DNA from: Xenococcaceae cyanobacterium MO_188.B19
GTDB lineage: Bacteria; Cyanobacteriota; Cyanobacteriia; Cyanobacteriales; Xenococcaceae
NCBI GenBank assembly: GCA_030065715.1
Contig: JASJDF010000005.1
Coordinates: 1-32,670, forward strand
Reading direction: 5' to 3'
Length of the DNA: 32,670 nt
Under the pieces are notes generated by a model. The model saw only the letters and a list, made by a program, of their open reading frames with translations, searched no databases and had not been told where the DNA came from. Below are positions 1,701 through 9,463 of the stretch, piece after piece. The stretch's first letter is position 1; each line of letters begins with the position of its first letter. Made by a program: the position numbers and the translations under genes.

Positions 1701-3137
1701 ATGAAGTTTTTATTATTAAAAACCCTTTTAATACGCCGTGGTAGAGATGATGAGGGATTTGTTGTTCCAGTAGTTATCTCACTGGGATTAATTATGGTTC
1801 TTTTAGGCACCTTTAGTATTGTTAAATCCAGTGATGAGAATCTAAATGCTATTACTCAAAGATCCACATCCATAGCTTTAGCAGCAGCAGAGACTGGTAT
1901 TGCTCAATACCAACAGCTACTAAGTAGAAATAGAGCTATCGCAGTGTATAGTGATTCAGACTGGATAGATTCAAATCTGAATAATCTTAATCTTTGTAAT
2001 ACTAATACTGAAATTACTAATGCAATAAATAGTAATAATTTTAAAAACGTAGTTACTAGCACCAGTACCTATGATGATTTAGGACAATATAAGCTAGTAA
2101 GCTATCAATATCTTAATGGAGCTACTGGTGCAACAGTCGTCCCAGGAACAAATCCTAATAACGATACAATTGGAAGACTAATAGTTGAAGGTAGGGCTAA
2201 TTCAAACGATACTGGCGGTACAAGAATTCAAGTCGATATTCCTATTCGCCGAGAAGCTCCAAAATTAACTGACTTAGACCCAGCACTTTGGATTGACAGT
2301 ACAAGTGTAACAAATATTGGCGGTGATAATCTTATAGTTGGCAAAGATAATAATAATAATAGAGACCTGACGGATGTAGGAGATGGTTACAACAGTATTA
2401 TCTTTTCTAATCCTGCCACAGTAAGCAGTGGTTGTAATGTACCGACTGGTCTTAATCAGCCTAATAATGGTATCAATGTTAATAGTGAGAAAGTATTTTC
2501 TATCCCATATAGCTTTCCAAATACCCCAGCAGAGCCATCAAAATATATAAAAACTAACTCTAATAACCTAAATGAATTGATGGCAGCAGGAGGAAAACTT
2601 CCATCTGCTCTTGGTCAGGATATTGACAATGCTAAGGATACTAATAATATCTACCATTACGTTATTGATGGAAACCTTACTCTAACAAGCGATCTTAGAG
2701 TGAATTCTGGAACAAGGATTATGCTGTATGTCTGTGGTGATATTACTATTGACAATAGTGCAGGAACAATCAATATCAACAAAAACGCTCTAACTAATAC
2801 ATCATCTAATTTAGAAATTTATGGTAATAATACTGCTATAAGTTATTCTTTTTGTGATGCTGCTGATAAAACTAGAATAATCAGTTTTACAGGAGGAGGA
2901 ATAACTAATATTGAAGCCTTAATTCATGCTCCTGATGCAACCATAAGAATAGCAAGTGACGAGACTATTAGGGTAATTGGGGCTATCTGGGTTGATGACT
3001 GGAACGATAGTAGCTCTGGTTCAACAGTTACCGTTACTTCTGATACTGACAGTCATCAAGAGTATTTGAGTAGAGCCAGTTTTGTTATGCCTACTCTCAG
3101 TAATGCTACTGAGTGGAAAACAATTGTGATTCCCTAA
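1701..3137 (+). CDS. PilX-like / HpsA-like pilus-associated membrane protein
   Basis: N-terminal DDEGFVVPVVISLGLIMVLLGTFSIVKSSDENLNAITQRSTSIALAAAETGIAQY: PilX-type TM helix and the AAAETG motif. First gene of a four-gene pseudopilin cluster. Confidence 0.65.
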   Translation: MKFLLLKTLLIRRGRDDEGFVVPVVISLGLIMVLLGTFSIVKSSDENLNAITQRSTSIALAAAETGIAQYQQLLSRNRAIAVYSDSDWIDSNLNNLNLCNTNTEITNAINSNNFKNVVTSTSTYDDLGQYKLVSYQYLNGATGATVVPGTNPNNDTIGRLIVEGRANSNDTGGTRIQVDIPIRREAPKLTDLDPALWIDSTSVTNIGGDNLIVGKDNNNNRDLTDVGDGYNSIIFSNPATVSSGCNVPTGLNQPNNGINVNSEKVFSIPYSFPNTPAEPSKYIKTNSNNLNELMAAGGKLPSALGQDIDNAKDTNNIYHYVIDGNLTLTSDLRVNSGTRIMLYVCGDITIDNSAGTININKNALTNTSSNLEIYGNNTAISYSFCDAADKTRIISFTGGGITNIEALIHAPDATIRIASDETIRVIGAIWVDDWNDSSSGSTVTVTSDTDSHQEYLSRASFVMPTLSNATEWKTIVIP

Positions 3138-3154
3138 CTTCAATAATTTTATTT

Positions 3155-3709
3155 ATGTCAATATCTTACAAACTAACTAAATTTAATCGCAAAACTTCTC
3201 GTAAAGATCGAGGTTTCACCTTGATGGAAGTTATTGTTGCTACCCTGATTACTTTTTTGTTTCTAGCTGGCTCTCTACAAGCTATTGTTTTAGCCACTTT
3301 CATTAGAGTACAAGCTCAAGAAAAACAGCTTTCCAATCAGCTAATTCAAGAAGACATAGAAGCACTTCAATCTACAGCAGAAAATTTAGCACGAAATGAT
3401 AGTCTTTGTTCCGCTAATACTCTTGCTAATGGATATGCTCAAGCATTAATCACTGCATACTCTGGAAATACATATCAATTAGATGAACCTTTTTTCGGTT
3501 ATACAATGCGCCTACATCGAGATTATCTAGGTGATGGTCGTTTAATAGATGGCACAACTGGAAACACAACAGATATAGCAGAAAGTACTCCTCCCCATAG
3601 AGTTCTTAAAGTAAGATATGTTACCCAATCAGTTAAAAATGGCACAACAAAAGACGTTACCGAACATTATGTTGAAGTTATCCCTAGTGCAGCTTTGCAA
3701 TGTCCCTAA
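3155..3709 (+). CDS. Prepilin-type cleavage/methylation protein, PilV/HpsB-like pseudopilin
   Basis: RGFTLMEVIVATLITFLFLAGSLQAIVLATFIRVQAQ prepilin class III signal. The start at 3155 (MSISYKL) fits better than the track's 3113, which overlaps the upstream gene. Confidence 0.8.
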   Translation: MSISYKLTKFNRKTSRKDRGFTLMEVIVATLITFLFLAGSLQAIVLATFIRVQAQEKQLSNQLIQEDIEALQSTAENLARNDSLCSANTLANGYAQALITAYSGNTYQLDEPFFGYTMRLHRDYLGDGRLIDGTTGNTTDIAESTPPHRVLKVRYVTQSVKNGTTKDVTEHYVEVIPSAALQCP

Positions 3710-4404: not shown

Positions 4405-5970
4405 ATGAACTTATATCAATTTTATAAAATAAGAAATCAATCTAAAAAGTCAAATGGCTTCACTTTAACAGAATTATTGGTCGGAGCATTAATAAGTACT
4501 ATTGTTATTGGTGGTGCTGGTTGGGGCTTGATGCAGATGTTGAATGTCACCCTAGATAATAGCGACCAGACTGAAAGAAGAGCCGAAATCAACCGTGCAA
4601 TGGATTTTGTTTCTGATGAAATTAGAAGAGCTAAGAGAGTTTGGACTAACTATCCAGATTATACAGATTCTCCAGGAAACGCAGATGTAGCAAACTCAAC
4701 CACTGTACTTGAACTACAAATTCCTGATGTTGATGGTGATGGTGATGATGAATTTATCGCCTATTACATAAAAGAATCACCTAATATAAGTTCTAATTGG
4801 CGTGGACCTCAAGCTTTATATCGTCTTGGACCACCTCTTGATGCAGATGGAGAATACTCTATTAATTCCTCAACTGGATTTTTAAATGCAAGAACTCCTA
4901 GTATCTTAATAGATAGTTTGCAAAAAAGGACTACCCCAGGTTGTGCGGGAACAATGTTTCCTACCCCTATTAGTGGAGAAGTTCCTGGTTTCGCTGTTTG
5001 TTTAGAGAACTCAATGACAATTCCAGACGTTGATAGTGATGGTTTAGATGAAACCGCTTATGAAACTGCTCATCTATTCTTCAGTGGCGTATTTGATTCT
5101 GATGCAGGTAGTGAAACCTATTTAGCCGACTCGAAAACTTTTGCTAGAGTCGATGATGATGTAACTACCGCAGCTATTATTGATAAAGGCTCAAGTTTTA
5201 CTGGCACTCTTGGGGGTTCTTGTTCCGTTAGTGGGAGCAGTCTTAGTTGTACAAACGATACGATTGTATCAGTCCGTTCTTTAGGTAGTGTTTATGCCTG
5301 TGACACTAGTACCAATTGGAAAATGAAAACTGAAATTAAGATTGGAACACTTGATGCCAGTGGAAATATTACAGACAATAGTCCTGATATTCTAGATGAT
5401 AATACAACTTCACAAATAGTTAATCTATCAGGAGGTGATTCTATAGAGGTGACATCAGACCCTTATCTCGGAAATAGTTGGACTAATCCAGATACATCAG
5501 CAGAAGATAACTGCTTAAACTCTTCCGATCCTGTGAGCAGTAAAAACAACGTTCAGGTCTCAGTTCTTGATATTACAAGTAATACTTTTTCTTATAAAGA
5601 TGGGTACACTGATGAAAATAATAACCAACAAGATTCTGTGTTTAAAATTCTGGATGATGAAGGTTTAGTGCTAACTAAAGCACAAATTATTAATGGCAAT
5701 AATAGTCAATTTCAAATACAGGATGATGGAATAAATATAACTATTAGTGAATTACAGGATGATGGCAGTTACGCGGTAACAACAGACTATGAGATTAAAG
5801 AAATAAACGGAACAGACTACCTTGTCAAATCTAATGGTGAGTACGTATTGAACGTTGAGAAAAATCAACAAGTTTTTCTATATCTTGTTGAAATTGGTCA
5901 GGATAATCCTAGCTCATCTGGTTTTGATCAACAAGATAATGTTGTTTTAGTTGTTGCTGAATCTCAATAG
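4405..5970 (+). CDS. PilW/HpsC-like pseudopilin with long acidic C-terminal domain
   Basis: SNGFTLTELLVGALISTIVIGGAGWGLMQM prepilin signal; PilW-type EINRAMDFVSDEIRRAKRVW; Asp-rich DVDGDGDDE and DVDSDGLDE loops. Confidence 0.75.
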   Translation: MNLYQFYKIRNQSKKSNGFTLTELLVGALISTIVIGGAGWGLMQMLNVTLDNSDQTERRAEINRAMDFVSDEIRRAKRVWTNYPDYTDSPGNADVANSTTVLELQIPDVDGDGDDEFIAYYIKESPNISSNWRGPQALYRLGPPLDADGEYSINSSTGFLNARTPSILIDSLQKRTTPGCAGTMFPTPISGEVPGFAVCLENSMTIPDVDSDGLDETAYETAHLFFSGVFDSDAGSETYLADSKTFARVDDDVTTAAIIDKGSSFTGTLGGSCSVSGSSLSCTNDTIVSVRSLGSVYACDTSTNWKMKTEIKIGTLDASGNITDNSPDILDDNTTSQIVNLSGGDSIEVTSDPYLGNSWTNPDTSAEDNCLNSSDPVSSKNNVQVSVLDITSNTFSYKDGYTDENNNQQDSVFKILDDEGLVLTKAQIINGNNSQFQIQDDGINITISELQDDGSYAVTTDYEIKEINGTDYLVKSNGEYVLNVEKNQQVFLYLVEIGQDNPSSSGFDQQDNVVLVVAESQ

Positions 5971-6014
5971 TTACTTTGGATTACCATAAACCTGAAAGAA
6001 TTTATCTATACCAA

Positions 6015-6255
6015 GGCTTTATAAGCTGCGAGGGTTTTTTGTGCTGTTTTTTGCCAAGAAAATTATTGGTCTTGCTGTTTTCCTTTCTCTATTAATTCTT
6101 GATGTAATAATTGATCGCTAATCACTTTACATATTGCTTCTGCTAATTGTATTGGCTGATTGGGATCGATTGTTAAGTCTACATTTCCTGCTACTTCTGG
6201 TAATGAAGAAACATTAGAAGTAACTACTGGAGTGCCGAGAGTCATTGCTTCTAAT
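6015..6255 (-). pseudogene. C-terminal fragment of a glycosyltransferase (partial duplicate of the GT at 8237-9397)
   Basis: MTLGTPVVTSNVSSLPEVAGNVDLTIDPNQPIQLAEAICKVI... near-identical to the GT C-terminus. In-frame TAA replaces a Gln codon (QDQ*FSWQKTAQKTLAAYKAL); homology stops abruptly near 6255. Confidence 0.88.
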
Positions 6256-6288
6256 AATCTAGCTACAATGGTTTGTGTCGAGTAAATA

Positions 6289-6581
6289 AGACGTGAAGTT
6301 TAAAATTCTGCTTCGGAACGAGTTTCATGAACATAATTTAGGCATTATTCAATAGACTTGTTGGGTAATAAGAGTTGAAACGTCTGAAAAGCTTATCCTA
6401 TAAGGCTTAGGGATATTTTCAATCAAAAATCGCTGAATGCTTTGATAGACAAGAGTTTCGTCCATTTTTTTGAGTTAATTCCCAACAAGTCTAATATCTT
6501 CTCCTTGCCATTTTCTTGTATGTTTGAGTAAATGTTGGGCTTTTTTTCCTCTTTTAATGGGGGGAAGTTTACGTAATAAAG
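6289..6581 (-). pseudogene. Remnant of an antitoxin-like gene homologous to 7715-7975, interrupted by a MITE-like element
   Basis: 6289-6353 plus 6496-6581 (151 bp) align end to end with 7704-7854 (151 bp). GAA to TAA nonsense (DI E*CLNYVHETRSEAEF) and a 5' truncation. Confidence 0.85.
6354..6492. mobile_element. MITE-like insertion, 139 bp, with 12-bp TIRs and a 3-bp (AAT) target duplication
   Basis: Left end AGACTTGTTGGG; right end CCCAACAAGTCT. Flanked by AAT at 6351-6353 and 6493-6495. The intact homologue at 7704-7854 has a single AAT and no insert. Confidence 0.88.
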
Positions 6582-6606: not shown

Positions 6607-6873
6607 TTACTTTTCCCAAAAGCTTTTATTCCGAAATAATTTAACTAATTTTGGGTCTGGCTTATGATCTGTACAAAACAAATATTCGTAGTCTACTTCG
6701 TCTAAGATGTAGAGTGTCTGATCTAAAATAGTGCGCTCTGCTTCCTTATAGGAAGTCTCAATCATAAATTCAGTACAAGATTTTCCTTGAAGCCTAGCTG
6801 CTTCGTCAATCAAATTTTTCCTACTCTCATCAATTCTCAGATTAATTACTTTTTGCTTGTGTGTAGTTGCCAT
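6607..6873 (-). CDS. DUF1778/TacA-type antitoxin, apparently without an adjacent GNAT toxin
   Basis: KVINLRIDESRKNLIDEAARLQGKSCTEFMIETSYKEAERTILDQTLYILDEVDYEYL: ribbon-helix-helix and the DUF1778 C-terminal pattern. Confidence 0.75.
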   Translation of the reverse strand: MATTHKQKVINLRIDESRKNLIDEAARLQGKSCTEFMIETSYKEAERTILDQTLYILDEVDYEYLFCTDHKPDPKLVKLFRNKSFWEK

Positions 6874-7091: not shown

Positions 7092-7316
7092 ATGGAAATT
7101 TTACAACTCACAACAGAAATTGATGACAGTGGACAGTTAAAGATCAATCTGCCCACTAATTTAGAGGTGGGAAAAGTGGATGTAGTAGTAATTGTTAATC
7201 CCGTCACAGAGAAAGATAAAAAACAGAAATCCTATGATTTTTCTGATTTAGTAGGAAAACTTAGCTGGCAGGGAGACGCGGTAGCAGCACAGAGACAATT
7301 AAGAGATGAGTGGTAA
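7092..7316 (+). CDS. VapB-like antitoxin
   Basis: 74 aa, MEILQLTTEIDDSGQLKINLPTNLEVGKVDVVVIV (AbrB-like/cyanobacterial antitoxin style). Overlaps the start of the PIN gene (GATGAGTGGTAA). Confidence 0.75.
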   Translation: MEILQLTTEIDDSGQLKINLPTNLEVGKVDVVVIVNPVTEKDKKQKSYDFSDLVGKLSWQGDAVAAQRQLRDEW

Positions 7317-7683
7317 TCGTTATTTATTGGATACCAATGCTATTATTGCTCTGCTGCAAAAAGACCCCAACTTAATTAGATTGCTTCAAAGTGCAGAGTG
7401 GGTTGGTATTTCTGTAATTAGTCAAATTGAATTTTTAGCTTTTTCTGGCTTAAGTGAAGCAGATAGACAGCTTTTTGAACAATTTTTACTAAGAGTAGAA
7501 ATTATCGATTTATCGAGTCACAATAGAATCCTCCTCAAACAAATCATTTCAATTCGCCAACAATATCGTTTGAAACTACCTGATGCCATTATTTCTGCGA
7601 TGGCAGTACAAAATTTGGCAAAATTAGTAACTCGCGATGTTCAATTAAATAGGGTTACTGAATTAACAGTTGTTGATTGGTAG
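7306..7683 (+). CDS. PIN-domain toxin, VapC-like
   Basis: RYLLDTNAIIALLQKDP ... GISVISQIEFLAF ... LKLPDAIISAMAV: canonical PIN D/E/D motifs. Confidence 0.92.
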   Translation: MSGNRYLLDTNAIIALLQKDPNLIRLLQSAEWVGISVISQIEFLAFSGLSEADRQLFEQFLLRVEIIDLSSHNRILLKQIISIRQQYRLKLPDAIISAMAVQNLAKLVTRDVQLNRVTELTVVDW

Positions 7684-7714
7684 AGTGTTTAATGTATCAC
7701 ATCAGACGTGAAGT

Positions 7715-7975
7715 TTAAAATTCTGCTTCGGAACCAGTTTCACGAACATAATTTAGGCATTCTTCAATATCTTCTCCTTGCCATTTTTTTGTATGTTTGA
7801 GTAAATCTTGGGCTTTTTTTCCTCTTTTAATGGGGGGGAGTTTACGTAATAAAGATGAATCTTTAGGTTTGTTTATTTGGATAGAGTCAAGAAAATAACT
7901 TACAATTTTCAGTATGTCAGGAGATAATTTATCTAATTGATTATCAATCTTTTGGCGCAATTCAGCATTATTCAT
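7715..7975 (-). CDS. Small antitoxin-like protein (DUF2281-like), orphan
   Basis: 86 aa, MNNAELRQKIDNQLDKLSPDILKIVSYFLDSIQ...; size and composition match cyanobacterial TA antitoxins; no toxin ORF adjacent on the same strand. Confidence 0.5.
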   Translation of the reverse strand: MNNAELRQKIDNQLDKLSPDILKIVSYFLDSIQINKPKDSSLLRKLPPIKRGKKAQDLLKHTKKWQGEDIEECLNYVRETGSEAEF

Positions 7976-8219: not shown

Positions 8220-8259
8220 CAGCCTATAAAGCTTTTTCAATACAAAGCTTTATAGGCTG
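8220..8259. repeat. Perfect 16-bp inverted repeat overlapping the 3' end of the glycosyltransferase gene
   Basis: CAGCCTATAAAGCTTT - TTCAATAC - AAAGCTTTATAGGCTG. The right arm lies inside the GT coding sequence; no clear U-tract follows. Confidence 0.8.
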
Positions 8260-9397
8260 CAATAGTTTGTCGTGCGGTTTTTTGCCAAGAAAATTGCTGC
8301 GCTTGGTGTTTTCCTTTTTCTATTAATTCTTGACGTAGTAGATTATCATTAATAACTTTATATATTGCTTCTGCTAATTGTATTGGCTGATTTGGATCGA
8401 TGGTTAAGGCTGCATTTCCTGCTACTTCTGGTAAGGAGGAAACATTAGAAGTAACTACAGGAGTGCCAAGAGTCATTGCTTCTAAGACTGGTAATCCAAA
8501 GCCTTCGTAATAGGAAGGATAGGCAAAAACATCTGCCCTACTGTAGCAAAAAGCAACAGCTTGGTCAGAGAGATAGTCTAAATGATAGATATTTTGGTTA
8601 TGGGGTGAGTTTTTAATAGATTCAAAAATAGGTTCATATCGCCATCCTGGTTTACCAATAAGTAAGAGGTTATGGGGAATTCCGTGTTTTTGCTTAAGAT
8701 AGTTAAAAGCAGTAATTAGAGTTGTAATATTTTTTCTGGGTTCGATAGTACTGACAAATAAGATGTAAGGTTGATTAAAGTCGTAGTTAATAGATTTTTT
8801 GACTGTATCTAGGGGAAGTTGAGATAAATAATCGGGAGTGTAGCGACTTGCTAGGGGAGTCACCCAAATCTTTTCTGGTTCAATATCTAAGTATTGGATA
8901 ATATCTTTTTTGGTACTTTCTGAGATGGCAATAATTAAATCCGTCCATTGCAAACATTTTTTAACTTTTTTACCGTAATTCGCTGCTACGGAGTCCAGAT
9001 ATTGGGGATATCTCAAAAAAGCTAGGTCATAGATAGTAATTACTTTACGGCTCTGGGGATAGGGAAAAACACTGTAGTTAGTTCCGTGAATAATATCGAC
9101 GGAGTCAGTAAATTTTTGGAGATAGTTGGAAAATAACTGAGGAAAATTATTAATTAAGATATTAGATATTTTTACGGGAATAGGTAAAACCTTTTTATTG
9201 GGATAGGTTTGTAAGTTTTCGGGAAAAGCTAAATTTCTTTTTAACCAATTATTCAATCTTGGTTGATAAATAATCCCTAGTTCAAAGTCTTCCTGGCTTT
9301 GTAGGGTGGATAAGTTGGCTAGTAAATTGGTTACATATAATCCAACTCCACTGGGTTGGGGGGTGACTGGAGTAGCATCAAGGACAATTTTTAGCAT
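8237..9397 (-). CDS. Glycosyltransferase family 1/GT4-type
   Basis: MLKIVLDATPVTPQPSGVGLYVTNLL ... LFVSTIEPRKNITTLITAFNYL ... YEGFGLPVLEAMTLGTPVVTSNVSSLPEVAG. Internal Met at 9397 is a better start than the track's 9463. Confidence 0.92.
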   Translation of the reverse strand: MLKIVLDATPVTPQPSGVGLYVTNLLANLSTLQSQEDFELGIIYQPRLNNWLKRNLAFPENLQTYPNKKVLPIPVKISNILINNFPQLFSNYLQKFTDSVDIIHGTNYSVFPYPQSRKVITIYDLAFLRYPQYLDSVAANYGKKVKKCLQWTDLIIAISESTKKDIIQYLDIEPEKIWVTPLASRYTPDYLSQLPLDTVKKSINYDFNQPYILFVSTIEPRKNITTLITAFNYLKQKHGIPHNLLLIGKPGWRYEPIFESIKNSPHNQNIYHLDYLSDQAVAFCYSRADVFAYPSYYEGFGLPVLEAMTLGTPVVTSNVSSLPEVAGNAALTIDPNQPIQLAEAIYKVINDNLLRQELIEKGKHQAQQFSWQKTARQTIAAYKALY

Positions 9398-9463
9398 TCC
9401 GCTTAGGTTTGGATTTTGGGCTATTGTAGTGAGTCCGAGGGCATTGAAGAAACCTCTCCCCAA

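Follow-up and report, generated by a model that had tools for sequence, protein, structure and literature searches.

The 139-bp element at positions 6354–6492 of the window (the whole 32,670-nt stretch of DNA analysed here) is very probably a MITE whose insertion hit a single AAT in a duplicated pseudogene fragment and was catalysed in trans by a DDE transposase from an IS5/ISL2-like IS. Its boundaries were obtained by direct reading of the sequence and by a repeat search, and end-to-end relatives agree with them. The ends, AGACTTGTTGGG...CCCAACAAGTCT, are complementary at 12 of 12 positions and constitute perfect terminal inverted repeats (TIRs). These reach 18 bp imperfectly, with 17 of 19 positions paired when the comparison is extended and one flanking base is counted; the first 12 bp of the left TIR, AGACTTGTTGGGTAATAA (6354–6371, + strand), are the perfect partner of the right TIR, AGACTTGTTGGGAATTAA (6475–6492, − strand). 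The element is flanked on both sides by AAT (6351–6353 and 6493–6495), a target-site duplication of the ANT kind seen across the family, and the 18-bp end pattern with zero mismatches occurs within the window only at these two termini. With TIRs and without a transposase gene, the element qualifies as a MITE. The initial annotation had described a small non-autonomous element of 139 bp with perfect 12-bp TIRs and an AAT duplication, which the sequence and the repeat search show to be correct to the base.

The insertion site is also present in uninterrupted form. The host site (6286–6581, − strand) is a copy of the 3′ part of ORF 7715–7975 that lacks a start and is interrupted by the element, and the uninterrupted paralogue (7701–7854, − strand) lies within this intact 86-aa ORF (− strand). 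In the repeat search, the paralogue matched in two pieces, 6286–6354 against 7701–7769 (94%) and 6493–6581 against 7766–7854 (97%), which rejoin at a single AAT and give an exact empty site. The 296 bp of 6286–6581, minus 139 and minus 3, leave 154 bp, which is the length of 7701–7854. The earlier proposal of 7704–7854 as a clean empty site is therefore borne out, its 151 bp instead of 154 bp reflecting a start 3 bp later, and the possibility that the segment is part of the ancestral gene fails, as it is absent from the uninterrupted paralogue. A search of relatives for an orthologous empty site did not find the paralogue in the same genus and gave only a weak 38-bp match in one genome of the family; the empty-site evidence thus rests on the paralogue.

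The interrupted ORF copy has no start and lies in frame downstream of the stop of a TacA-like antitoxin ORF (6607–6873), and its frame is closed by the MITE as ...WQGEDI-RLVGN-stop. The host gene copy was a start-less pseudogene fragment already before the insertion, and loss of function through this MITE is not likely. Close by, a 243-bp duplicate (6012–6254 and 8243–8485, 87% identical) represents the 3′ end of a glycosyltransferase gene (8237–9463, − strand); this duplicate and the interrupted ORF copy point to segmental duplications, now decayed, in the surroundings of the MITE. Among the neighbouring genes, the antitoxin ORF (6607–6873, − strand) is TacA1-like (Pfam 1.2e-14) and apparently an orphan, with no acetyltransferase toxin seen beside it. 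A VapBC-like pair is found at 7092–7316 and 7306–7683 (+ strand), where a 74-aa ORF overlaps a PIN-domain VapC (Pfam 2.6e-13), and the ORFs 3113–3709 and 4405–5970 (+ strand) are weakly similar, below the NCBIfam cut-offs, to the pseudopilins HpsB and HpsC of hormogonium polysaccharide secretion.

The source assembly (4.67 Mb, 436 contigs, 76% complete) contains a single copy of the MITE. Matches were found in 24 of 391 genomes of the order, many of them end to end at 69–81% identity, and the end-to-end relatives come from Xenococcus, Pleurocapsa, Calothrix, Nostoc, Tolypothrix, Okeania, Trichodesmium, and Hydrocoleum. We infer that the source genome falls into one family-level group with Xenococcus sp. 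MO_188.B8 and Pleurocapsa sp. MO_192.B19. A scan for termini only, with the two TIRs 88–118 bp apart, in a species-representative genome collection gave 68 loci, nearly all cyanobacterial, in Okeania, Xenococcus, Pleurocapsa, Calothrix, Tolypothrix, Nostoc, Westiellopsis, Fischerella, Trichodesmium, and Hydrocoleum; the loci of Westiellopsis and Fischerella have the ends in common with the family and the interior only in part. Although the scan required the ends only, identical 3-bp flanks are present at 61 of the 68 loci (27 ATT, 20 AAT, 8 AGT, 1 ACT, and 5 other, i.e. 56 of 61 ANT). A length of 137–140 bp is likewise found at 61 of the 68, and the MITE interior forms a dispersed family with a mean column identity of 82%. 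With these loci, the full-length matches in relatives, and a related subfamily described below, the concern that there might be no other copies anywhere has been removed. The single copy in the genome is what a chance inverted repeat within ancestral sequence would predict, with no mobile element involved, but the empty site and the dispersed homologues with target duplications already refute such an origin, whose probability we regard as practically nil. Chance is excluded because the empty-site comparison gives the boundaries independently, and because 3-bp duplications accompany 61 of the 68 loci that were found by their ends alone.

With a Nostoc copy as query, full-length relatives were found in only 5 of 218 genomes of that family, indicating that the MITE family is not abundant there. 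Plasmid carriage was seen only in Calothrix sp. 336/3, and a search of viral contigs and phages revealed no MITE carriage. Three loci with the same kind of TIRs and unrelated interiors (L088, L092, and L103; 126, 150, and 126 bp) were set aside. They sit in non-cyanobacterial MAGs labelled Desulfatirhabdium, WWE3, and Parabeggiatoa, and could mark either a genuine expansion of the IS group or contamination during binning.

Elsewhere in the source genome, the exact inverted pair of 18-bp ends occurs only once, on contig C195 (L064) at 121–1131, where AGACTTGTTGGGAAATAA stands at both ends of a 1011-bp IS. A full-length IS with common termini, which the initial annotation had proposed to look for, is thus found in the very same genome. 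Its intact ORF (L064:188–1081, − strand) encodes a transposase of 297 aa that matches DDE_Tnp_4 (4.9e-28, above the Pfam cut-off) and HTH_Tnp_4, and the catalytic residues D136, D211, and E255 are invariant among six related transposases; a search by sequence found no solved structure for it. The NCBIfam IS5 models give 68 and 22 bits, below their cut-offs of 140 and 110, and formal assignment to ISL2 can be called no more than likely. The flanks of this IS, ACT and AAT, do not match, and its own insertion is therefore not demonstrable. In other genomes, related complete ISs of 1005–1044 bp carry ends of this type and are flanked by matching duplications (AGT, ACT, ATT, and AAT). Genome G134 contains pairs of the ends at 139 bp and gave no transposase match. 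The own-genome IS resembles the ISL2-like group of the IS5 family in its size of about 1.0 kb, single ORF, DDE_Tnp_4 domain, 18-bp TIR, and 3-bp ANT duplication (the last seen at the related ISs), and judged by its sequence the candidate partner fits this group. Since the genome also contains an IS that shares the 18-bp ends and has an intact DDE_Tnp_4 transposase, an IS5/ISL2-like partner is well supported, and mobilisation of the MITE in trans by the partner transposase is probable.

The relation between the MITE and this IS appears to be one of partners. The 18-bp ends common to both would be expected if the MITE were a simple internal-deletion remnant of the resident IS, i.e. a classical type I MITE born here. 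However, the likeness is limited to about 18–21 bp at the ends, with no similarity past ~20 bp at either end, and the interior is common to MITEs of other families and genera, which makes such a remnant highly improbable. Origin by deletion from the resident IS was rejected on the unlike interiors: compared with this IS, the MITE lacks a transposase and has the ends alone in common. The suggestion of an IS5/ISL2-type parent consequently holds for the type, given the same 18-bp ends, the DDE_Tnp_4 and HTH_Tnp_4 matches, and the ANT duplications of the related ISs, whereas "parent" is too strong a word because the MITE interior is not derived from the own-genome IS.

The length of the family is nearly constant. 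In 27 genomes where the family or its end pattern is present, paired ends were found once at a spacer of 30–90 and 57 times at 91–151, and all 57 elements from the latter range are 135–142 bp long. Among aligned pairs that differ by at least 28 substitutions, there are ~31 substitutions for each indel event; related pairs enter this count more than once, and it does not amount to a test. A palindromic hairpin module of ~38 bp is located at about element positions 27–64 (6380–6417), and among otherwise alike Okeania MITEs (L078, L083, L087, L104, L124, and L137) it occurs in opposite orientations, as if inverted by template switching or hairpin extrusion. Shuffled sequences fold less well than the single strand (z −3.7 as DNA and −3.4 as RNA), which, with the fixed length, would be compatible with retention for a host function, as a structured RNA or a regulatory repeat, mobility being incidental. 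Yet when a conserved internal RNA structure was sought with RNAalifold, the consensus fold retained the terminal 12 pairs only. The two co-varying pairs (columns 4 and 11) are both in the TIR, where they are expected from one transposase binding both ends, and the insertions are dispersed with target duplications, here in a dead fragment. We therefore consider a host function of this kind very unlikely. A coding mini-element, with the 38-aa ORF 6349–6465 (− strand; MDETLVYQSIQRFLIENIPKPYRISFSDVSTLITQQVY) as its functional part, is a still more doubtful proposal and can be given hardly any weight. The frame runs through the element without a stop and terminates in the target site, but stops break it in the other family members inspected, the consensus has no codon structure, and no relatives with a kept frame and synonymous excess were seen. 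A coding role was rejected since the frame is not conserved.

A second MITE subfamily, with TTGTCGCT ends (AGACTTGTCGCTTTATAA...TTATTTAGCGACAACTCT), was initially encountered next to a decayed IS in Okeania hirsuta; at this locus (L147:1449–2488), a 139-bp TCGC-type MITE adjoins or lies inside a decayed TGGG-type IS. The subfamily has dozens of copies per Okeania genome, with ANT duplications at 25 of the 27 copies examined and a length of exactly 139 bp in 20 of the 27. The interiors of the two subfamilies are homologous, with a mean profile score of 14.3 bits, whereas dinucleotide shuffles average −3.8 (set-wise sd 0.5); the 99th percentile is exceeded by 26 of the 27 TTGTCGCT-end copies. 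ISs with TTGTCGC ends (TCGC-type) occur in genomes bearing the TTGTCGCT-end MITEs. Together with the homologous interiors, this shows that the MITE body carries end variants matching different ISs. A further reading, which we put forward tentatively and consider somewhat less probable than its negation, is that one ~139-bp MITE body has been kept for very long across many cyanobacterial families, with its ends switched between TTGTTGGG and TTGTCGCT in step with the IS partners. Fixed spacing and invertible hairpin modules would then be required for transposition, and the MITE would be a specialised long-term parasite of the IS family, not a short-lived deletion derivative.

Bacterial MITEs, including Correia, RUP, and ERIC, have been reviewed (PMC10969869), and the present MITE has in common with them a short length without transposase, TIRs, a target duplication, a same-ended partner IS, and the capacity to form hairpins. 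It differs in a near-constant length of 137–140 bp over several cyanobacterial families and in its two TIR variants. Another cyanobacterial MITE, Nezha of Anabaena/Nostoc (Zhou, Tran and Xu 2008, as cited in PMC10969869), is mobilised by ISNpu3-like elements according to PMC3049150. Both Nezha and the present MITE are cyanobacterial and have a proposed IS partner, and the two are likened here by description only. Nezha is also of similar size. The present element is of a known kind, and only its fixed length, its matching ends, and its invertible hairpin core set it apart.

In the proposed mechanism, the transposase would bind the 18-bp TIRs of both the IS and the MITE, cut both ends, and join them to staggered 3-bp ANT targets, and repair of the staggered joins would leave the 3-bp duplication. 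Two readings are offered for the constant length. The 137–140 bp and the hairpin interior may persist through selection via the transpososome, if it or the extruded hairpins tolerate length change poorly, or all copies may stem from one compact ancestral MITE of which few length variants were amplified.

For the source genome alone, the insertion is an ordinary one in an already dead gene fragment, and the single copy gives no sign of recent amplification there. With the element, its empty site, and a candidate transposase source in one genome, it is nevertheless a clean case, and it connects a dispersed family with a defined group of ISs. Provided that the length constraint and the matching ends hold, the family would be a good natural system for studying the minimal substrate requirements of a transposase, and also how MITEs outlast their parents.
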